Assembly (NCBI GenBank): GCA_030019205.1
Contig: JASEFH010000014.1
Coordinates: 1-64,000 of the forward strand
Reading direction: 5' to 3'
Source of the DNA: Methanomicrobiales archaeon
GTDB lineage: Archaea; Halobacteriota; Methanomicrobia; Methanomicrobiales; JACTUA01
Length of the DNA stretch: 64,000 nucleotides
The translations under genes were made by a program, and so were the position numbers. The notes beneath the pieces are model-generated. The model ran no database searches, was not told the DNA's origin, and saw only the letters and a program-made list of their open reading frames with translations. Shown piece by piece: positions 12,711-55,971 of the stretch. Position 1 is the first letter of the stretch. Every line of letters starts with the position of its first letter.

Positions 12711-13584
12711 TCCGCTGCGGCGGCAGGGCTACCAGTTCCTCTCCCCCGGCTCGTCCGCTGCGGTCAAACCCTGCCTCTGGTGCAAGCGCGCCCTGAAAGG
12801 CGGGGACTTCTGCTACAAACACCAGTTCTACGGCATCGAGAGCCACCGCTGCATCCAGATGACGCCGACGCTCCGCTGCACGCAGCGGTGCCTCTTCTGC
12901 TGGCGCTCCTTCGAGCACGAGCCGCAGGAGGAGGTGGAGTGCCCGCCGCAGGCGATCGCGGACGGGGTGGTGCACCTCCAGCGGCGCGCCCTCTCGGGCT
13001 ACAAACCCTCCCCCTACGTCACGGAGGAGCGGTTCCGCCAGGCGATGGAGCCCCGCCACGTGGCCATATCGCTGGCGGGGGAGCCCACCTGCTACTCCCG
13101 GCTGCCGGAGCTCGTCGACCTCTTCAACGCGCGGGGGTATACGACGTTCCTGGTCTCGAACGGCACCCGACCGCAGGTGCTGGCCGAGTGCAGACCGTTC
13201 CAGCTCTACGTCTCCCTGGACGCTCCCGACCGGGAGACCTACCTGCGGCTCTGCCGTCCGCGGGAGGACTGCTGGGACGCGGTGCAGGAGAGCCTCGGGC
13301 TGCTCTCCGGCCGCCGCTCGGCGGTTCGCATCACCCTGGTGCGGGGCTGGAACGACCGCCTGCCGGAGCGGTATGCGGCGATGCTGGATGAATCGGGCCC
13401 GACATACGCGGAAGTGAAAGGATATATGTATCTCGGATCCAGTAGAAATCGTCTGAACAGGGATACCATGCCGGATCACCACCATGTGCGTGCCTTCGCG
13501 GACGCGATCGCCGAGCACTCGGAGTACCAGGTGCAGGACGAGAACCCTCTCTCCCGGGTCGTCCTGATGGGGCGGTCGCGATGA
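12691..13584 (+). CDS. twy1: tRNA 4-demethylwyosine synthase (radical SAM)
   Basis: This 297-residue enzyme condenses N1-methylguanosine-37 of tRNA-Phe with pyruvate to form 4-demethylwyosine, the first tricyclic step of wyosine synthesis. The radical SAM motif is CTQRCLFC. The extra N-terminal cysteines in [16 protein letters not shown] and SHRC bind the second cluster as in archaeal Taw1/TYW1. AGEPTCYS and FLVSNGTRP follow as in the family. The start lies within argS, and the end overlaps sepS by 4 bp (ATGA). Confidence 0.95.
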
Positions 13585-15188
13585 GATTCGACGTGAACGC
13601 CTGGCGGAGCCGCTCGAGGGACAACTTCGAGGCGGCCTGGCACGAGGGCCCCTCGGTGATGACTCCGCCCGCCATGAACGAGCGCTACCCCCGCCGGAAG
13701 TACCGCCGCGGGATCGAGCACCCCGTCTTCGGGACGGTGCGGCGCCTGCGGGAGTGCTACCTCTCGATGGGGTTCGACGAGGCGGCGAATCCCGTCATGG
13801 TCGAGGAGCAGGACGTCTACCGCCAGTTCGGCCCGGAGGCGATGGCGGTGCTCGACCGGGTCTTCTACCTGGGCGGCCTGCCCCGCCCCAACGTCGGGAT
13901 CTCGCGCGCCAGGCTGGATAGGATCGAGGCCATCCTGGAGCGGAAGGTCGGGGAGAGCGCCGAGAACGCGCTCCGCGAGACTCTGCATGCCTACAAGAAG
14001 GCGGAGATCGACGGGGACGATCTGGTCCATGCGATCGCGGGTGTCCTCGCGTCGGACGACGCCACCGTCGTGCGCATCCTGGACGAGGTCTTCCCCGAGT
14101 TCCGCGAGCTCGCGCCCGAACCTTCCCGCATGACGCTGCGCAGCCACATGACGAGCGGCTGGTTCATCACGCTCGGGCAGATCTGGGAGCGCCAGCCGCA
14201 CCCGATCCGCCTCTTCTCGGTGGACCGCTGCTTCCGGCGGGAGCAGCAGGAGGGTCCGACCCGCCTCATGACCTACCACTCCGCCTCCTGCGTGGTCGCG
14301 GGGGAGGATGTGACGAACGAGGAGGGGAAAGCGGTCTCCGAGGCGCTCCTCTCGGCGTTCGGGTTCACCGGCTTCCGCTTCCGCCCCGACGAGAAGCGCT
14401 CCAAGTACTACATGCCGGACACCCAGACCGAGGTGTACGCACGCCACCCCGCCCTGGACTGGGTGGAGGTGGCGACGTTCGGGATGTACTCCCCCTCCGC
14501 GCTCGCGGAGTACGGCATCGGTGTCCCCGTGATGAACCTCGGTCTCGGGGTGGAGCGGCTCGCCATGATCATCCACGGCGCGAACGATATGCGGAAGCTC
14601 TCCTACCCCCAGTTCTTCCCGCCGGAACTCTCCGACCGCGATCTCGCCGAGGCGGTGCGGCTCCGCGAGGAGCCGCGGACGATCCCGGGGCGGGAACTCG
14701 CCGCCGCGATCGCGGCGGCGGCCGCCGCCCACGGTGCCGAACCGGGGCCCTGCAGCATCTCCGCCTGGAGCGGCATCCTGGGGGACCATCAGGTCGAGGT
14801 CTTCGTGGAGGAGCCGGAGTCCAACGCGAAGCTCTGCGGGCCGGCATGCCAGAACGAGATCTTCGTGCACCAGGGGAGCATCCTCGGTGTACCGGACACC
14901 GAGAAGTGGGCTGCCGTGCGGCGGGAGGGGACGCCGACGGGCATCACCTACCTGGACGCGGTGGCGTGGCTCGCCGCCGCCCGCATCGAGGCGATGGCCC
15001 GCTGCGGGGCGTCCACGACGGTGCAGGTGAAGATGGCCCGCACGCCGGCGGACATCAACCTGCTCGTCGCCGAGCACGCGGTGCGGTTCATCACCGACCA
15101 CAAGAAGAAGATCGACGTGCGGGGCCCTGTCTTCCTGACGGTCCGCTCCAGCGTGCAGGACCTGGAGGTCGAGACCCGAGGAGCCTGA
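13581..15188 (+). CDS. sepS: O-phosphoseryl-tRNA(Cys) synthetase
   Basis: This 535-residue class II synthetase charges tRNA-Cys with O-phosphoserine, which SepCysS then converts to Cys-tRNA. This route is characteristic of methanogens. Family features include the N-terminal [11 protein letters not shown], the class II motif 2 region [33 protein letters not shown], and motif 3 [16 protein letters not shown]. The length matches known SepRS proteins of about 540 residues. No pscS or cysS is visible in the window. As the last gene of the prf1 operon it is followed at once by a T6 stretch. Confidence 0.96.
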
Positions 15189-15540: not shown

Positions 15541-15589
15541 GATCCCTTCAATATTCCCGACAGAGCCCTATCGCAAGCGGGGTCGGGGA
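15541..15589 (+). repeat. Left arm of dispersed palindromic repeat
   Basis: GAGCCCTATCGCAAGCGGGG with flanking GAGATCCCT and CCCGACAG matches the left arm and left flank of the complete repeat at 55571-55650. The matching right arm is not adjacent but lies about 850 bp away at 16439-16465, on the other side of an AT-rich segment. Confidence 0.5.
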
Positions 15590-15641
15590 ATAGGTGTAGT
15601 GCAAAGTGACATCATAACCTTATGACAATTAAATATCAAAG

Positions 15642-15647
15642 AAAAAA
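15642..15647 (-). terminator. Oligo-T stretch downstream of the zinc-ribbon gene
   Basis: Six A on the plus strand read as T6 on the minus strand, 30 nt past the stop of the minus-strand zinc-ribbon gene at 15677. This is a candidate archaeal terminator. Confidence 0.35.
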
Positions 15648-15676
15648 GGTGATCTTTAGTATAAGCAAAATAGAGA

Positions 15677-16075
15677 TTATTCTTTCTTTTTTGGTCTGTG
15701 TTTTGCAGATCCTTCCTTTATATCCTCATGGATGGTTTTATAAAAAATCCCGTGCTCGTCCAATCCCTCAACTTTATGAGTAACCTTTGTTACATCTGGA
15801 TCTCTTCTATCTACATTAATTGTAGTTTTTACAGGTCTTCCTGTCTTCTCAGATTTACTGCTTTTTGTTCGTTCTTCCTGTTTAACAAATCCTGAGGGAT
15901 CTATGACTTTTGAAGATACATCTACAGAGAGGTGTAATTGGGCTTCAATAGTTGAGAAATGATTCTTTGTTCTTGATCCACAATCAGGGCAGGATGTCTT
16001 TGGGTTAACTTTAATCTCTTCTGATAAATCCCGCCCACATTCCGCGCATTTTACAGCATAAGATTCTGATGACAT
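15677..16075 (-). CDS. Zinc-ribbon hypothetical protein
   Basis: This 132-residue protein starts with a four-cysteine ribbon: CAECGRDL near residues 10-17 and CPDCGSRT near residues 29-36. The remainder is charged, rich in Lys/Glu/Ser, and ends HRPKKKE. It has no membrane segment. The gene is far more AT-rich than its neighbours, a sign of recent acquisition. It sits in an islet of about 850 bp bounded by two arms of a dispersed repeat. A frameshifted small membrane-protein gene lies 33 bp upstream. The function is unknown. A nucleic-acid-binding or adaptor role is only a guess from the ribbon. Confidence 0.65.
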   Translation of the reverse strand: MSSESYAVKCAECGRDLSEEIKVNPKTSCPDCGSRTKNHFSTIEAQLHLSVDVSSKVIDPSGFVKQEERTKSSKSEKTGRPVKTTINVDRRDPDVTKVTHKVEGLDEHGIFYKTIHEDIKEGSAKHRPKKKE

Positions 16076-16108
16076 GTTATCCTTCTTATGCGTTGTTTAT
16101 CGTAAAAA

Positions 16109-16251
16109 TTAGTAATGTGAGGGTCTATCAATTGCATAGACCTTTAAGAGGAATAATCCAGCAATAATTAGCACAACCATAAACAAGCCGACTAGAAGTG
16201 AGTTCCCCAGTTGCGAAAAAAAGCCCCTAATTCGGAAAGAGGGGGCGGCAT
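16109..16251 (-). pseudogene. Small single-pass membrane protein gene with frameshift
   Basis: From an ATG at 16251 the frame reads MPPPLSELGAFF. After a run of seven T it continues, one base out of frame, as SQLGNSLLVGLFMVVLIIAG and then LFLLKVYAIDRPSHY to a TAA at 16109. With one extra T the product would be 47 residues with a single transmembrane helix. An AT-rich box (TTTATTTTTAAATA) lies just upstream, and the zinc-ribbon gene starts 33 bp downstream. The indel is in a homopolymer, so a sequencing error is possible. Confidence 0.4.
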
Positions 16252-16438
16252 ATTTAAAAATAAACCACATACTTCAAAAACCTTGTACTTGAATCGTTTG
16301 AGGTTAATGATTCCAAAATCTTCCCTCCTGATTACTTCTTTAAAAGTTAAATCTTCTCCCGCAGTGTGGGGGCGAAAGTGATTTTTTAGCTTCCCGCGCT
16401 GGCCAAAAAGGACACGATGTCATTTTACATCACATCCA

Positions 16439-16465
16439 ACCCCCCCCTTGGTGCGATTCGCCCGG
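16439..16465 (+). repeat. Right arm of dispersed palindromic repeat
   Basis: CCCCCCCTTGGTGCGATTCG matches right arms at 23081-23108 and 23829-23849. Its TGCGAT is complementary to the ATCGCA of the isolated left arm at 15541-15589, so the two could be halves of one interrupted copy or inverted ends of one element. Confidence 0.5.
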
Positions 16466-16574
16466 CCCGGCGGGCACGAGGCCGATGCGAAGGAGATCCT
16501 GGCCGAGACGGTCTACTCCGGCATCCCCGAATGGACTGGCATCGGATGCAGGAGCGGAGGCATTCCGGGAAGAG

Positions 16575-16612
16575 ATCCCCTGCCCCCCAGCGGTAGCGAT
16601 AGGACCTGTGCA
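16575..16612 (+). repeat. Partial copy of dispersed repeat (right arm)
   Basis: AGAGATCCCCTGCCCCCCAG followed by CGGTAGCGATAGGACCTGTG combines the usual left-flank AGATCCC with the right-arm consensus GGTGCGATAGGNCCTG. The left arm and centre are missing. Confidence 0.4.
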
Positions 16613-16995: not shown

Positions 16996-18813
16996 ATGCC
17001 CGCTAATTCCCCCTGGCGGGGTGTACTGAAATCGATGGGCCTCGTCTTCGGGGACATCGGCACGAGCCCCATCTACACGCTGGCCGTGATCTTCCTGCTG
17101 CTGGAGCCCACGCCCTCGAACGTGATGGGCATCCTCTCCCTTCTCATCTGGACGCTGATCGTGCTGATCACGGTCGAATACACCTGGCTGGCGATGAGCC
17201 TGGGGATGAAGGGCGAGGGCGGGACGATCGTGCTCCGCGAACTGCTGCTCTCCCACCTCAAGTCCCGCACGGCGATCGCCATCGTCTCTTCGATGAGCAT
17301 CATCGGCGTCGCGCTCCTGATCGGCGACGGGGTGATCACGCCGGCGATCAGCATCCTCTCGGCGGTGGAGGGGATCGTGCTGATCCCGGGCTTCGAGACC
17401 ACCGGCGAGACGATGCTCATCCTGATCGCCGCCATCATCGCGATCGCCCTCTTCTCCATCCAGCGGAGCGGCACCGAACGGGTGGCCTGGACGTTCGGCC
17501 CCATCGTGGCGGTCTGGTTCCTGGCGCTCGCCGTCTCGGGCGTGATCGCGATCCTGCAGGCGCCTGCGGTGATCCTGGCCATCAACCCCTACTACGCCAT
17601 CCAGTTCCTGCTGAATGGCGGCTGGCCGGCGTTTTTCATTCTTTCCGCCGTCATCCTGGTCGCGACGGGGGGCGAGGCCCTCTACGCGGACATGGGACAC
17701 CTGGGGCGGGCTCCGATCGTCCGCGCCTGGTACCTGGTCTTCTTCGCCCTGGTCCTGAACTACCTGGGGCAGGGGGCGTTCCTGCTCGCACATCCCGATG
17801 TCCACCTCGTCCTCTTCGAGATGATCTACAGCATCTCCCCCCTGATCTACGTGCCGTTCCTGATCCTCTCCATTGCCGCGACCGTGATCGCCTCGCAGGC
17901 GATGATCAGCGGCATCTTCTCCATCGTCTACCAGGGCATCACCACCCGCATGCTGCCCATGCTCAAGATCGACTACTTGTCCGCCGAACTCCGCTCCCAG
18001 ATCTACATCGACTCGGTGAACTGGCTTCTCCTCTTCTCGGTGCTGATCGTCATGTTCCAGTTCCGCTCCTCGGCCAGCCTGGCCGCCGCCTACGGCCTGG
18101 CCGTCACGGGGACGATGACGATCACCGGCATCATGCTCACCTGCATCTTCTTCCTGCGGCGGCAGATCGTCCTCGGGCTCGTGGGCATCGGGGTGACCCT
18201 GGTGGACCTCGGCTTCTTCCTGGCCGCCACCTCCAAGATCCCGACGGGTGCGTACTTCGCCCTCATCATCGCCACGGTGCCCCTCGGGATCATCCTGATC
18301 TACCTCGCCGGTCAGAAGAGGATCTTCCGGGCGCTCCGCCCCATGGAACTGCCGCGGTTCCTGGAAACCTACTGCAAACTCTACCGCGACCCGGACGTCC
18401 CGAAGATCCGGGGCACCGCGCTCTTCTTCGCACGGAACACCCAGCAGCTGCCGCCCTACATCCCGCTGACGATGTTCACGAACAACATCATCTACGAGGA
18501 CAACATCATCATCTCCGTCCGCATCCTGGACAATCCCTTCGGCCTGAAGAGCGGCTTTAGAGAGATCCTGGCCCCCGGGCTCCGCGTCTTCGAGATCCAG
18601 ATAGGCTACATGGAAGTGGCGGAGATCATGCAGATACTGCACAAAGCGGGGATCCAGGAGAAGACCATCTTCTACGGGCTCGAGGATATCGTCACGAACA
18701 ACCTGGTCTGGAAGATCTTCTCGGCCATCAAGCGGCTGACGCCCTCCTTCGTCCAGTTCTACAAGCTGCCGGCCGACAAGATCCATGGCGTGGTCACGCG
18801 GGTGGAGATGTGA
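16996..18813 (+). CDS. kup: KUP-family potassium transporter
   Basis: This 605-residue proton/potassium symporter has the N-terminal signature GLVFGDIGTSPIYTL near residues 15-29, the GMKGEGGTIVL loop, and IGDGVITPAISILSAVEG. About twelve hydrophobic helices end near residue 440. A C-terminal cytoplasmic domain of about 160 residues follows, containing RGTALFFARN and MTFTNNIIY-like segments as in bacterial Kup. The length is typical. The gene is monocistronic, with about 900 bp of gene-poor DNA upstream and 480 bp downstream. Confidence 0.96.
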   Translation: MPANSPWRGVLKSMGLVFGDIGTSPIYTLAVIFLLLEPTPSNVMGILSLLIWTLIVLITVEYTWLAMSLGMKGEGGTIVLRELLLSHLKSRTAIAIVSSMSIIGVALLIGDGVITPAISILSAVEGIVLIPGFETTGETMLILIAAIIAIALFSIQRSGTERVAWTFGPIVAVWFLALAVSGVIAILQAPAVILAINPYYAIQFLLNGGWPAFFILSAVILVATGGEALYADMGHLGRAPIVRAWYLVFFALVLNYLGQGAFLLAHPDVHLVLFEMIYSISPLIYVPFLILSIAATVIASQAMISGIFSIVYQGITTRMLPMLKIDYLSAELRSQIYIDSVNWLLLFSVLIVMFQFRSSASLAAAYGLAVTGTMTITGIMLTCIFFLRRQIVLGLVGIGVTLVDLGFFLAATSKIPTGAYFALIIATVPLGIILIYLAGQKRIFRALRPMELPRFLETYCKLYRDPDVPKIRGTALFFARNTQQLPPYIPLTMFTNNIIYEDNIIISVRILDNPFGLKSGFREILAPGLRVFEIQIGYMEVAEIMQILHKAGIQEKTIFYGLEDIVTNNLVWKIFSAIKRLTPSFVQFYKLPADKIHGVVTRVEM

Positions 18814-20427: not shown

Positions 20428-22959
20428 CTAACCGGCGGCCTCCCCGCGCTGCACCTGCTCCTCGCTGACGTCGAACTCCCGATCCGTGCCGATGATCCGG
20501 TATCTGCCGTCCGCCTTCACGGGGTAGGGGTTGCCCAGCGTCGAGTAGGGGAGGACGAACTCACCGTTGCGGCTCTCCTGGCGGTAGGTGAAGGTCCGCC
20601 CCGCGGGGGTGGTGAGGTTGAGCTCCACGATCCCTTCCCCGGCGACGCGGGCGCCGGGCACGTACTCGAACACCTTCACCGCGGGCCCGCCGTCCGACGA
20701 AGACTCGTGAACCAGGCGGAAGTGCGCGAGTGCCGGAATCTCCGAGAGAGGTTTCACGAGCGAACTGCTGCGCACGGCCGCATGGTAGCCGGCGGGCGCA
20801 TGGTCGTTGTAGCGCCGGGCCGCCTCTTCCGCTTCGCGCAGGGGCATGGAGGCGGATCGGACGATGACGGGGCGGTTCTCCGCCATCCCGTACTCGATGT
20901 AGAGGGCATCGGCGGGCTCCGCCATCGATCCGTCGAAGTTGTGGAGACGGGCGACCATGGTGGCGTAGTAGCGCTCCGTCCCGAGCGATGTCACCCTGTA
21001 CGAGCCCGAGGGATCCTGCACCAGGAACTCCTGGACGTAGGGGGACATCCCGGCCGAGGGGTTGTACCAGGCGGCGATGGAGGCGAACCGCAGAGGGTTC
21101 GCCATCGACGTATCGGTGATCACGTACTTCGAGCCCAGGCGGTGCAGCACCTCCTCCGCCCGATCCTCGGATTCGGCCATGAGAAATCCGGCCACGCCCG
21201 ACGGTCCTGCGGCGTTGTCCTGGAACGGATTCGTGTTGGGCATCCGCCGTGCGAGGAAGGTGATCCAGTGGCCGTAGTCCCACCAGGAGAGGATGCCGTA
21301 GGACCCTTCGGGATAGCGGAACGCGTCGCGGTCGTAGAGAGCGAGGTACTCGACGCCGGGGTCGGGTGTATGGTTCTGCACCCAGACGAGCGTCTCGTAC
21401 CAGGGTTCGCTGATGGAGGTGGTGTGGGCGCGCGTCGCGCTCTGGAAGTCGTACTGGACGGCGTGCGCGCAGAAGAGGGCGAGCAGGACGATGGCGCCGC
21501 CCATCGCCAGCGCCTTTCCGGGGTCCGCTCTGCGGCTCGAAGATGGGTGAGCCTTTCTGCGCTTCTCCTTCCGATCCTTCGGTGCGGGATTCCGGGCCGC
21601 ATCCTCCGCCCTGCGGGAGACGAGAATGTGCAGGTCCTCCCAGCAGTGCCTGGCGACCCCGCCCACCAGAACGGCCGAGAGGAGGGCGACGTTCACGCTC
21701 AGGTAGTACTCGTACCGCCAGTGCGCCCAGGTCGCGAGGAGGATCAGGAGCGACCAGACGATGACGAACAGCCCTTCTGCGCGCCGCTCCCTGTAGACCC
21801 GGACCGCGAGGAGCCCGAGCCCCCCCGCCATGAGGATCAGCCCCGTCTGGAAGCTGAACCACGCCTGCCCGATCGTCCACGGGCGCGCCTCGACGATGGT
21901 CAGGACCTCTGCCGTCGAGCTGAAGAAGGCGCCGCCGCCGGCAGCGAACGCCTCGAACACCGCGGGGGCGGCAAGAGCGATGACACCGGCGCCCGCCGCG
22001 CCGATGCCCCCCAGGGCGAGGATGTAGTGGACCGCCCGCCCCCGGAAATACCGCGAGAGGAGCACGACCGCAGCGGTTCCCAGGATGAGGAGCATATAGG
22101 CGATCGGGTGCCCCAGCGAGTACCGGGAGAGGGACAGCCCGTCGTGCGGGGTGCCGAAGGCGAGCAGCCCGGCGATCCCGATCCCGAACGCGATCCCGTT
22201 CAGCAGGAGGAGGTAGCCGCTGGATCGGCGGGAAGCCGCATCCATCGCGCCCTGGACGGGGGTGTACAGCATCACCAGCAGCCCGAAGAGGATCATGGTG
22301 GGCATGGTGAGGAGCCCGAGGAGGTAGAGGACACCGGTCGCCGCGGCGAGGAGCGCCGGCGTCCGCAGGGTCTCCACCCGCCGGAAGTCCACGGGGGACT
22401 GACGGGAGCAGCGCAGGGCCGCGATGTAGCCCAGACAGAACAGCGTCGAGAAGAACACCTCGGCGACGTGGTGATCCACGTAGCCGAACAGCGACTTGTA
22501 GAAGAACTGGCCGGGGACGATGGCGACCAGGGCGGCGGCGAGGAGACCGGTCTTCCCGTCGGCGAGGCTCTTCCCGAGAAGGTACATCGCCGGCACCAGG
22601 AGCGCGGCAAGAAGGGGGGGGATCCAGGAGGCGACCATCATGATCTCCGCCCGCGTGGCGGCGCCGCAGATCAGGCAGGCGGTGGCGGCGACGAAGGGGA
22701 AGAGCGGGCCCCAGTCCACCACTTTGCCGGAGGGATAGGCGGTCAGGGGATCGTACCAGGTGTAGCCGGGATAGTTCGCCACCACGATCTCGATCTGGCG
22801 GAGGGTGTACCAGGGATCGTTCTCGTACACCGCCACGCCCCAGGCGTGAACGATCGCGGGCATCGGGATGAGGCGGATGCCTGCGGAGACGGCAAAAAAG
22901 AGCAGAATGAGACCAATTATGACGTACTTCCTGTTTTTATCGAAAAATTCTCTATCCAT
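20428..22959 (-). CDS. aglB: Oligosaccharyltransferase AglB (first copy)
   Basis: This 843-residue STT3-family protein transfers a lipid-linked glycan to Asn-X-Ser/Thr of secreted proteins. It has about 12 N-terminal membrane helices. The first external loop has YENDPWYTLRQIE (metal-binding DxD-type region), a later loop has KSLFGYVDHHVAEV, and the soluble domain holds the acceptor-binding motif SWWDYGHWITF. The ATG at 22959 has a GAGGT site and an upstream TTTATCACA box. Convergent spacing of 66 bp separates it from amzA. The second AglB at 51768 shares the same layout, so the genome has at least two. Confidence 0.95.
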   Translation of the reverse strand: MDREFFDKNRKYVIIGLILLFFAVSAGIRLIPMPAIVHAWGVAVYENDPWYTLRQIEIVVANYPGYTWYDPLTAYPSGKVVDWGPLFPFVAATACLICGAATRAEIMMVASWIPPLLAALLVPAMYLLGKSLADGKTGLLAAALVAIVPGQFFYKSLFGYVDHHVAEVFFSTLFCLGYIAALRCSRQSPVDFRRVETLRTPALLAAATGVLYLLGLLTMPTMILFGLLVMLYTPVQGAMDAASRRSSGYLLLLNGIAFGIGIAGLLAFGTPHDGLSLSRYSLGHPIAYMLLILGTAAVVLLSRYFRGRAVHYILALGGIGAAGAGVIALAAPAVFEAFAAGGGAFFSSTAEVLTIVEARPWTIGQAWFSFQTGLILMAGGLGLLAVRVYRERRAEGLFVIVWSLLILLATWAHWRYEYYLSVNVALLSAVLVGGVARHCWEDLHILVSRRAEDAARNPAPKDRKEKRRKAHPSSSRRADPGKALAMGGAIVLLALFCAHAVQYDFQSATRAHTTSISEPWYETLVWVQNHTPDPGVEYLALYDRDAFRYPEGSYGILSWWDYGHWITFLARRMPNTNPFQDNAAGPSGVAGFLMAESEDRAEEVLHRLGSKYVITDTSMANPLRFASIAAWYNPSAGMSPYVQEFLVQDPSGSYRVTSLGTERYYATMVARLHNFDGSMAEPADALYIEYGMAENRPVIVRSASMPLREAEEAARRYNDHAPAGYHAAVRSSSLVKPLSEIPALAHFRLVHESSSDGGPAVKVFEYVPGARVAGEGIVELNLTTPAGRTFTYRQESRNGEFVLPYSTLGNPYPVKADGRYRIIGTDREFDVSEEQVQRGEAAG

Positions 22960-51767: not shown

Positions 51768-54368
51768 ATGACGCGCGTTGAGCTGAGCAACTACAGGAGC
51801 TACATCATCGCGATCTCTCTCGTCCTGATCTCCCTTTTCACCTTCTGGATCCGGGTGCTGCCGTCGTTCGCGGTCGGGAATCAGGATATCCTGAATTTTG
51901 TCGCGATGGACGATCCCTTCTACAACCTCCGCCAGGTGGAGCACATGCTCCGGAATTTCCCGACATACTCCTGGTTCGATCCGATGTCCCAGTACCCCTA
52001 CGGGTCGCCGGTGAACTGGGGGCCCGTGATGACGTATATCGCATCGTTCGTGGCGATTCTGCTGGGCGCCAGCACCCGCCCCGAGATCGCCTTCGCCGGG
52101 CTCATCACGCCACCCCTGCTGGCGGCGGCGATGGTGCCGGTGATGTACGCCATCGGCCGTATCGTCGCCGACTGGAAGACCGGTCTCATCGCGTCCCTGC
52201 TGATCGCGGTAGTCTCCGGCCAGTACTTCTACCGCTCCCTCTTCGGGTACTTCGACCACCACATCGCCGAAGCGCTCTTCTCCGCGCTCTTCGCCCTGGG
52301 ATACATCTACACCCTGAACTACGTGCGGCGTCATCCGGTGGACTTCAAACGTCTCGACACCCTGAAGGTGCCGGCAGCCCTCTCCGTCGCGAGCGGCATC
52401 CTCTACCTCCTGGGGCTCTTCACGATGCCCACGATGATCCTCTTCGCCCTGATCGTCGCGGTGTTCACCGTCGTCCAGTTCGTCGTCGACTTCTGGAAGG
52501 GGAGGTCCGGCGACTATCTCCTCCTGACGAACCTGCTCGTGTTCTCGATCGCGTCTATCGGGCTCGCCGCCTATGGCTTCAGGGCGAGCGGACTCTCCCT
52601 CATCTCCTACTCCTTCGGGCACATCGTCGCCTATGGGGCCCTGATGGCGGCGACCGTCGTGCTGTATGCGCTGGCGCGGTTCCTGCAGGGGCGGCCGAAG
52701 ATCTACTATCCCGCGGCGGTTGCCGCCATCGGCGTCATCGGGGCGGCGGGCATCGCCGTTCTGGCTCCGGCGATCTCCGCCACTCTGCTCGGCGGACTCT
52801 TCCAGTTCTTCGGCCAGCCGGCGACCGCCCTCACGGTGCAGGAGGCGCAGCCCTGGTCGTTTGCGGGCGCATGGTACGCGTTCAACTACGGGCTCATCCT
52901 GATGGTCGCCGGCATCGGCGCCCTGCTCTACTGGAACGTGAAAGAGGAGCGGTCCGATGCGATGTTCGCCCTGGTCTGGTCTCTTGTGATCCTCGTCTCC
53001 ACCATCCAGCACGTCCGCTACGAGTACTACATGGCGGTGAACGTGGTGCTGCTCTCCGCGGTCGCGATCGGCTGGATTCTGGACATGGGATGGAAAGACA
53101 CGCTCTCCTTCGTCCGCAGGGGTGTCTCCGCCGCCTCCCCCGAGGGGAAGGAGACGGAGACGACGCCCGCTGCACATGCGGCCAAACGGCGGAAGAAGGA
53201 GCCAAAGGAGGCGAAGAGCAGCCGGACCGCCCCCAGCGCGGTGAAGGTCGGGATGTTCTTCGGGGTGGCGGCCCTCGCGCTGCTCTTCATCTCCACCTCC
53301 TTTGCATCGGGCTACAGCGTGGCCTCCTCGGGCGGGATCCGCCTGAACCCGGAGTGGAAGGAGACACTGGAGTGGATGCATTCCAGCACGCCGGACCCCG
53401 GCGTGGACTACTACGGGGTATACGACAGGGATGGCTACCAGTATCCTCCCGGGTCCTACGGGGTCATGTCCTGGTGGGACTACGGGCACATCATCACCTA
53501 CATCGCCAAACGCATACCGAATGCCAATCCGTTCCAGGCGGGGGTGGCGGGGCCCACCGGTGCTTCGACCTTCTTCATCACGCAGTCCGAGGATACGGCG
53601 ACCGGTATCCTGGATACGCTCGGGACCCGCTACGTGATCACGGATATCGAGATGGACATCCAGAAGTTCTGGGCGATGGCGACCTGGTACAACAGCACGC
53701 TCGGGGACTCCCCCTACCGCACGAGTTTCCTCGCCACGAACCCGGAGAATCCCTCGACGTACCAGGTGGTGAGCTTCTACACCCCGGCTTACTACAGCAC
53801 GATGATCTCCCGCCTCCACAACTTCGACGGCTCCCTGGTGAACGGCTCCCGGGCGTACTACGTCGAGTACCAGATTCGTGAAGGCATCGCGCTGCCGGTC
53901 CTGACGAACGCCCGGGAGATGCCCCAGGCGGAGGCGCAGGCGGCAGCCGACGCCTACAACCAGAAGGCCCCGGCCGGTTACCGCGCTGCGGTGCTGAACA
54001 CCTACCCGTACACGATCTACGATCCGCTGGGCCAGGTGCCGGCGCTCCGCCACTTCCGCCTGGTGCACGAGTCCCCGACGAACATCTTCCGCGGGACCTC
54101 GCCGGACATCAAGTACGTCAAGGTATTCGAGTACGTTCCCGGGGCGCACATCAGAGGGGAAGGCATCATCGAGATCGATCTCGTCTCCAACACCGGGCGG
54201 AACTTCACCTACCGGCAGCAGAGCCAGAACGGGGAGTTCGTCGTCCCCTACTCCACCAGCGGCAGCCCCTACGACGTGAGAGCGGTGAGCAAGTACCGCC
54301 TGGCAGGTACGGGCGTGCAGTTCGACGTGCCGGAAGAGGCGGTGATGCAGGGGACCTACATCAACTGA
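51768..54368 (+). CDS. aglB: Oligosaccharyltransferase AglB (second copy)
   Basis: This 866-residue STT3-family enzyme has about 12 membrane helices, then a soluble domain. The first loop has FVAMDDPFYNLRQVEHML, a later loop SLFGYFDHHIAEALFSALFA, and the catalytic motif is MSWWDYGHIITYIAKRIP. It differs widely from the copy at 20428 though the order of motifs is the same. A Lys/Glu-rich linker (ETTPAAHAAKRRKKEPKEAK) precedes the last helix. As the final step of the adjacent sugar cluster, it probably transfers that glycan to S-layer or archaellin proteins (inference). Confidence 0.95.
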   Translation: MTRVELSNYRSYIIAISLVLISLFTFWIRVLPSFAVGNQDILNFVAMDDPFYNLRQVEHMLRNFPTYSWFDPMSQYPYGSPVNWGPVMTYIASFVAILLGASTRPEIAFAGLITPPLLAAAMVPVMYAIGRIVADWKTGLIASLLIAVVSGQYFYRSLFGYFDHHIAEALFSALFALGYIYTLNYVRRHPVDFKRLDTLKVPAALSVASGILYLLGLFTMPTMILFALIVAVFTVVQFVVDFWKGRSGDYLLLTNLLVFSIASIGLAAYGFRASGLSLISYSFGHIVAYGALMAATVVLYALARFLQGRPKIYYPAAVAAIGVIGAAGIAVLAPAISATLLGGLFQFFGQPATALTVQEAQPWSFAGAWYAFNYGLILMVAGIGALLYWNVKEERSDAMFALVWSLVILVSTIQHVRYEYYMAVNVVLLSAVAIGWILDMGWKDTLSFVRRGVSAASPEGKETETTPAAHAAKRRKKEPKEAKSSRTAPSAVKVGMFFGVAALALLFISTSFASGYSVASSGGIRLNPEWKETLEWMHSSTPDPGVDYYGVYDRDGYQYPPGSYGVMSWWDYGHIITYIAKRIPNANPFQAGVAGPTGASTFFITQSEDTATGILDTLGTRYVITDIEMDIQKFWAMATWYNSTLGDSPYRTSFLATNPENPSTYQVVSFYTPAYYSTMISRLHNFDGSLVNGSRAYYVEYQIREGIALPVLTNAREMPQAEAQAAADAYNQKAPAGYRAAVLNTYPYTIYDPLGQVPALRHFRLVHESPTNIFRGTSPDIKYVKVFEYVPGAHIRGEGIIEIDLVSNTGRNFTYRQQSQNGEFVVPYSTSGSPYDVRAVSKYRLAGTGVQFDVPEEAVMQGTYIN

Positions 54369-55343: not shown

Positions 55344-55971
55344 GGCACTGTCAGGGATCATTCCCATCACCTCAACAGCCTTTCCGCGGACCAGGCTGGC
55401 GGCGGGGACGAGGGGGGGACCCCGGTCCAGCAGGAGAGCACGGAAGACCTGCGCGATTTTGAGAGATTCCTCCTCTCCCTATCCGCTCGTCCCTGCGAAC
55501 AACCGCCTGCACATGCCGAATTCTCTATCGACCCTGGCGAGATGGCAGGTCAAACCGGGTTGGAGTGGAAAAGAGATCCCTCCCGGAACAGGCCCTATCG
55601 CACCATGGGGGGGAGGGGGTGCGCCCCTTCCCCGCCGCTGCGATACCTCCCGAGATTGGTAGAGCCGATTGGCGTGAGTTCCCCTCTGTATCCTCCGGGC
55701 TGTCGCATTCGCCGGGGCGGGGCTCGGGGGAGGGGGCAAGAGAGCCCCCCAGCATGCTCTGGAACTGCGATACAGGGATACGTGTGGATCAGGCCCGATC
55801 CGCGTTCGCCTCCCTGAAATCGCACTGCGTCTGCCTGTTCTGTTGCATCTCCCCCCTCCGGTCGCAGACGGGAACATGCCCGGGAATGGGGGTGCACCTT
55901 CGCGAGAGTGCCGCACCTGCCCGGAGACGTATTCCGGTTATCCGGTCCTCGCCAGGTCCGATTGGCACATT
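55344..55971. other. Intergenic region with a repeat copy
   Basis: About 630 bp between two convergent genes. The main feature is the complete palindromic repeat at 55571-55650. The downstream part (55670-55800) shares short stretches with 15420-15490, such as CCCAGCATGCTCTGGA against CCCAGCGTGTTCTGGA, suggesting the repeat belongs to a longer element. No gene is supported. Confidence 0.45.
55571..55650 (+). repeat. Dispersed palindromic repeat, complete copy with left flank
   Basis: The left flank is AGAGATCCCTCCCGGAACAG, the left arm GGCCCTATCGCACC, the centre GGGGGTGCGCCCC, and the right arm GCTGCGATACC. It is the best-preserved copy, with clear inverted arms around the GGGTGCGCCC core. 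Confidence 0.65.

Follow-up and report, generated by a model that had tools for sequence, protein, structure and literature searches.

An AT-rich islet in a Methanomicrobiales genome is probably a transposase-less cargo cassette with IS481-like ends lodged in a G-rich palindromic repeat

The 64,000-nt stretch of DNA analysed here (the window) belongs to G000, a draft Methanomicrobiales genome of 2.73 Mb in 73 contigs and the sole member of its genus in our sequence set, and it raises the question of how an AT-rich islet came to lie between two arms of a dispersed, G-rich repeat. The GC profile of the window falls from 0.65–0.70 to 0.33–0.42 between approximately positions 15590 and 16440, in the interval separating a SepRS-domain gene (13581-15188, plus strand) from a KUP potassium transporter gene (16996-18813, plus strand). 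An earlier note had described an abrupt islet holding a zinc-ribbon gene and a small membrane-protein gene, and had proposed either that a copy of the repeat had received an insertion of foreign DNA or that the arms are themselves the terminal inverted repeats of a mobile unit, with the short palindromes elsewhere as its cargo-less derivatives. The compositional change was borne out by measurement (a drop from about 0.67 to about 0.36), and both open reading frames (ORFs) were present within the insert. The element as delimited below has a GC content of 0.37 against 0.66 in its 1.5-kb flanks and is single-copy in the genome; no Rfam family was matched in an Rfam search. The features of the locus are as follows.

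15567-15594, plus strand: left half of the interrupted G-rich palindromic repeat copy, CCTATCGCAAGCGGGGTCGGGGAATAGG
15595-15621, plus strand: left terminal inverted repeat (TIR), TGTAGTGCAAAGTGACATCATAACCTT, 32.3 bits against the family matrix
15595-16434: transposase-less cargo element, 840 bp, TG...CA ends, 37% GC
15677-16075, minus strand: cargo gene for a 132-aa protein, a CxxC...CxxC zinc ribbon followed by a predicted β-strand-rich domain
16109-16270, minus strand: probable cargo gene, an ORF of 53 aa with a single hydrophobic segment, located 33 nt upstream of the zinc-ribbon gene
16408-16434, minus strand: right TIR, TGTGATGTAAAATGACATCGTGTCCTT (minus-strand reading), 44.6 bits against the family matrix
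16435-16460, plus strand: right half of the interrupted repeat copy, TCCAACCCCCCCCTTGGTGCGATTCG

In our assessment, the insert at 15595-16434 is very probably a non-autonomous transposable cassette that was mobilised in trans and landed in the centre of one copy of the repeat. Its imperfect 27-bp TIRs, of the form TG...CA, directly adjoin the inner sides of the arms and coincide exactly with the change in composition. When the window was scored with a family weight matrix built from 23 ends, all of them from other genomes, the two ends of the islet were the only matches of at least 9 bits, and the maximum obtained from 60 simulated 64-kb sequences with the composition of the islet was 15.9 bits. 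The right end is up to 96% identical over 25–31 bp to the ends of several other elements (taken as a 29-bp end, up to 93% identical to those of elements in other genera), and the left end is 96% identical over 25 bp to the end of a 388-bp element. A degenerate version of the end pattern gave about 50 matches in 34 of the 232 genomes of the order (4 matches for the reversed control) and none in the sampled genomes of the phylum outside the order, and the exact pattern was absent from the viral contigs searched. Within its own genome, the islet is the sole match to the pattern TGTRRTG...GACATC.

Paired inverted ends of this kind bound AT-rich elements at ten other places, giving 11 complete elements with the islet, which range from 388 bp to 5.9 kb and have a GC content of 0.30–0.42 whatever the host. 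Four carry an rve/HTH transposase gene, interrupted in one of them, and the ten are listed here by genome.

G054: transposase-bearing, 3.0 kb, Fic protein
G195: transposase-bearing, 3.0 kb, two small proteins with no assigned family
G134 (L082 1573-7459): transposase-bearing, 5.9 kb, XRE-peptidase similar to PADLOC RmrA, DUF4411, MmeI-type restriction-modification
G136: interrupted transposase, 4.4 kb, SDH-type protease and two genes without assigned family
G137: transposase-less, class I methyltransferase
G173: transposase-less, class I methyltransferase, perfect CTCAGG duplication
G168: transposase-less, 200-aa protein with no assigned family
G187: transposase-less, proteasome-like protein
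G219 (L097 1753-4956): transposase-less, 3.2 kb, four genes (403, 190, 184 and 62 aa), perfect CGTACT duplication
G134b: transposase-less, 388 bp

The transposases contain rve, rve_3 and HTH domains, and the best NCBIfam model for the three intact proteins was IS481 (160–186 bits), with IS3 second (145–155 bits); because these scores fall below the curated IS481 cut-off of 224 bits, the family is labelled ‘IS481-like’ here. An affiliation with IS21, suggested by the end motif, was rejected on the grounds that the transposases score higher with IS481. A small DUF2080 ‘transposon-encoded’ protein accompanies the transposase, as a profile match in G195, by eye in G134 and G136, and as the same motif in G054. 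Perfect 6-bp target-site duplications flank six of the 11 complete elements (chance about 1e-19), the transposase-less elements G173, G219 and G134b among them. The family serves as a vehicle for accessory genes that can be exchanged, several of which resemble defence or toxin-antitoxin genes. In G134 a single IS-type element combines the XRE-peptidase/DUF4411 pair with a complete MmeI-type restriction-modification gene, and one protein of the four-gene G219 cassette, which had no match in Pfam, matches a PADLOC candidate defence family.

Because the islet is single-copy in its genome, its own movement has to be judged from its relatives. The methyltransferase elements of G137 and G173 share 83.6% identity across 924 bp that run from one TIR to the other, with no identity outside, and they occupy unrelated sites; related methyltransferase units were found at about four distinct sites, with copies bearing decayed ends at another, common site in G176, G177 and G187, and the G003 copy at yet another. 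The occurrence of this unit at differing sites in relatives lends indirect support to transposition in trans. Close relatives of the methyltransferase cargo gene (L128-L139) were present in 22 genomes of the order, and in several of these the ends were decayed or could not be recognised, which would fit genes kept after loss of mobility or a source of the cargo.

The site of insertion was examined through the repeat. The arms lie at 15563-15582 (GAGCCCTATCGCAAGCGGGG) and 16446-16460 (CCTTGGTGCGATTCG); the earlier note had set the end of the left one near 15589, slightly too far inward. The repeat is dispersed through the genome (CCTATCGCACCNNGGGGG occurs in seven exact copies, and in 21 with at most one mismatch), and its halves differ, being of the form CCTATCGCACC(AA)GGGGG on one side and of the CCCCTACCCCCGC-GTACGATAGG type on the other. 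The flanks of the islet are these two different, asymmetric halves in the correct order. In intact copies the arms are approximately 26–67 nt apart, a spacing somewhat larger than the 20–30 bp given in the earlier note. When the insert was removed in silico, the 54-nt joined copy aligned through the junction with intact copies, namely at 55578-55645 of the window and in L002 (both E 0.007) and, more weakly, in L026 and L015. Together with the 60 nt downstream of it, the right arm showed 80% identity across 75 nt with a copy on contig C4 (E 7e-12), and the likeness of the right half to another copy extends to about 16514. The presence of both halves in order, together with the joined-site alignment, therefore indicates that the insert interrupts a single repeat copy. 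The folding energy of the joined palindrome was no better than that of mononucleotide shuffles, and short arm matches alone showed no excess in the window (25 against 26.6 expected by chance), for which reason the argument from the arms is placed on the alignment of the joined site with other copies.

Three further observations concern repeats in the window. An additional half-arm of the same type (CCCCCCAGCGGTAGCGATAGG, 16570-16604) lies about 110 nt to the right of the islet, and repeat halves therefore cluster here. The window opens with a run of 55 C residues (within 1-83) inside a repeat-like copy, CCCCCACCCCCACAGGTACGATAGC, which may be either a length-variable G-tract or a sequencing or assembly artefact. 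The longest inverted repeats of the window are accounted for by two oppositely oriented AglB/STT3 oligosaccharyltransferase paralogues (20428-22959, minus strand, and 51768-54368, plus strand), about 30 kb apart.

No target-site duplication was found directly outside the ends of the islet (AATAGG against TCCAAC). An orthologous empty site could not be read in the related genera that were examined, where a different gene follows SepRS. Across the family, the five complete elements that have a G/C run of 6 or more within 40 nt all lack a perfect duplication, and the six without such a run all have one (Fisher p 0.002), a contrast that rests on 11 elements and a run threshold chosen after the data had been seen. 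Proximity to G/C runs was itself above the intergenic background (5/11 against 10%, p 0.003). The flanks of G137, G168 and G187 also contain dispersed repeats, none of which spans the junction. Loss of the duplication near G/C runs may reflect a targeting preference, age, adjacent deletion or recombination between repeats.

The last two of these causes give a modified form of the preferred explanation, not exclusive of it, in which simple transposition alone does not account for the elements within G-rich palindromes, and recombination between repeats or adjacent deletion brought them there or rearranged them. We regard this as possible, if short of probable. It would explain the lack of a duplication at the islet, and it fits the division of the family by G/C runs; intact copies such as that in L006, which are longer in the centre than the joined site, would agree with a small deletion. 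On the other hand, the sample is small and its threshold post hoc, other intact copies are no longer than the joined site, and two of the five elements near G/C runs (G136 and G168) keep 4 or 5 of 6 matching bases. A wider proposal, which we consider somewhat unlikely, is that the IS481-like family maintains within the order a pool of cassettes that lack a transposase and whose cargo is interchangeable and often related to defence, with G-rich palindromic intergenic repeats as preferred docking sites entered without target duplication. Some IS elements insert into REP/BIME palindromes. As far as can be compared by description, the present family resembles these in inserting into short dispersed palindromes, and differs in that only about half of its members lie near G-rich runs.

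The second proposal of the earlier note, that the arms are the ends of the mobile unit, now appears very unlikely. The arms are indeed inverted and directly abut the insert, and an alignment of arm plus TIR spans 52 nt. However, the same 27-bp ends occur elsewhere with unrelated flanks and with the 6-bp duplications directly outside them, palindrome copies elsewhere in the genome lack the TGTRRTG...GACATC ends, and the arms taken alone are ordinary short palindromes, here the asymmetric halves of a normal repeat copy. Its first proposal, an insertion of foreign DNA into a copy of the repeat, is supported by the TIRs, which belong to the insert and which elsewhere in the order enclose other cargo and lack these arms. 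An assembly artefact, in which an AT-rich contig was joined at G-rich repeats, would suit a draft genome of many contigs, with both junctions in repeats and no duplication, but is scarcely plausible, since repeat halves in the right order and two correct inverted ends would demand two coordinated errors.

As to the cargo, the conserved residues of the zinc ribbon are C10, C13, C29 and C32, and the region that follows was modelled as five β-strands (mean pLDDT 72, from two sequences only); a fold search with this model gave no match at E ≤0.001. No homologues were found in the phage, plasmid and genome-contig collections searched. One close relative exists in the order, in G163 (53% identity), where it immediately follows an Eco57I/TaqI-like methyltransferase gene and an unassigned gene for a 264-aa protein and has no element ends; the three genes in a row (L040 2815-5435) possibly form a restriction-type system. 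Weak N-terminal zinc-ribbon matches occur elsewhere in the phylum, a distant one in G455 being fused to an Mrr-type nuclease domain. Given the methyltransferase neighbour in G163 and the Mrr fusion in G455, an accessory, DNA-related role is a reasonable guess, and the protein would most likely have come from a restriction-type locus, as an accessory protein associated with DNA. For the 53-aa ORF no credible homologue was found. The earlier note had thought a relative with the zinc-ribbon gene in the same place but no arms to be telling; G163 has the gene without the arms, at a different locus, so that it has no bearing on the insertion. That the islet is an ordinary, horizontally acquired AT-rich gene pair whose end similarity is coincidental, as the end-less relative in G163 might suggest, has a negligible probability when its ends, inverted and exactly at the composition boundary, score 32.3 and 44.6 bits against a simulated maximum of 15.9.

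On the preferred explanation, insertion of a trans-mobilised cassette, an IS481-like transposase supplied in trans would have cut at the TG...CA ends, and the cut ends would have been joined into the centre of the G-rich palindromic repeat between the SepRS and KUP genes, parting its arms. The cassette would have entered from another methanogen and would now be stranded and immobile, since no family transposase was found in genome G000 at E ≤1e-40. The islet itself contains neither a transposase gene nor a remnant of one, and only its ends match the transposase-bearing elements.

Among known systems, the mobile insertion cassettes MIC231 of Bacillus cereus, mic-qnrD and mic-qnrS2 consist of a passenger gene between IS-type inverted repeats, lack a transposase, are presumed or shown to be mobilised in trans, and usually generate a target-site duplication (PMC3913671). 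The islet likewise has IS-type inverted repeats at both ends, passenger genes and presumed mobilisation in trans; it differs in its archaeal host, in having IS481-like instead of IS231 ends, and in belonging to a family that combines many cargoes with one set of ends. As the duplication is absent at the islet and present in cargo-only relatives, we describe it as cassette-like, claiming likeness to mobile insertion cassettes and not proven membership. It is not a MITE (short, non-coding, multicopy and non-autonomous), having ORFs and being single-copy. The IS481 family, found in bacteria and archaea, mostly produces 6-bp target duplications (PMC10045372). The transposase-bearing helper elements agree with it in the best model for their rve/HTH transposase, their TGT...ACA ends and the 6-bp duplications of six elements, and depart from it in scores below the curated cut-off, in the extra DUF2080-type gene and in the cargo present in every transposase-bearing copy examined. 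Transporter IS are insertion sequences that carry passenger genes. The transposase-bearing members resemble them in carrying Fic, MmeI-type restriction-modification and XRE-peptidase genes, whereas the family also includes cargo-only members with only the ends in common. A description of this archaeal family was not found in the literature searched, and one may exist elsewhere; the kind of element is known, and what may be new is the archaeal family, along with the preference of target that it appears to show.

These findings suggest that small accessory genes, defence genes included, can move between methanogen genomes on transposase-less units, and a pattern search for the 27-bp end signature that these units share can locate such cargo, as it did in 34 of 232 genomes. 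The bias towards G-rich repeats, where the duplication is lost, poses a testable question about transposon targeting, and the zinc-ribbon protein, together with the other uncharacterised cargo, becomes a candidate for defence-related functions.
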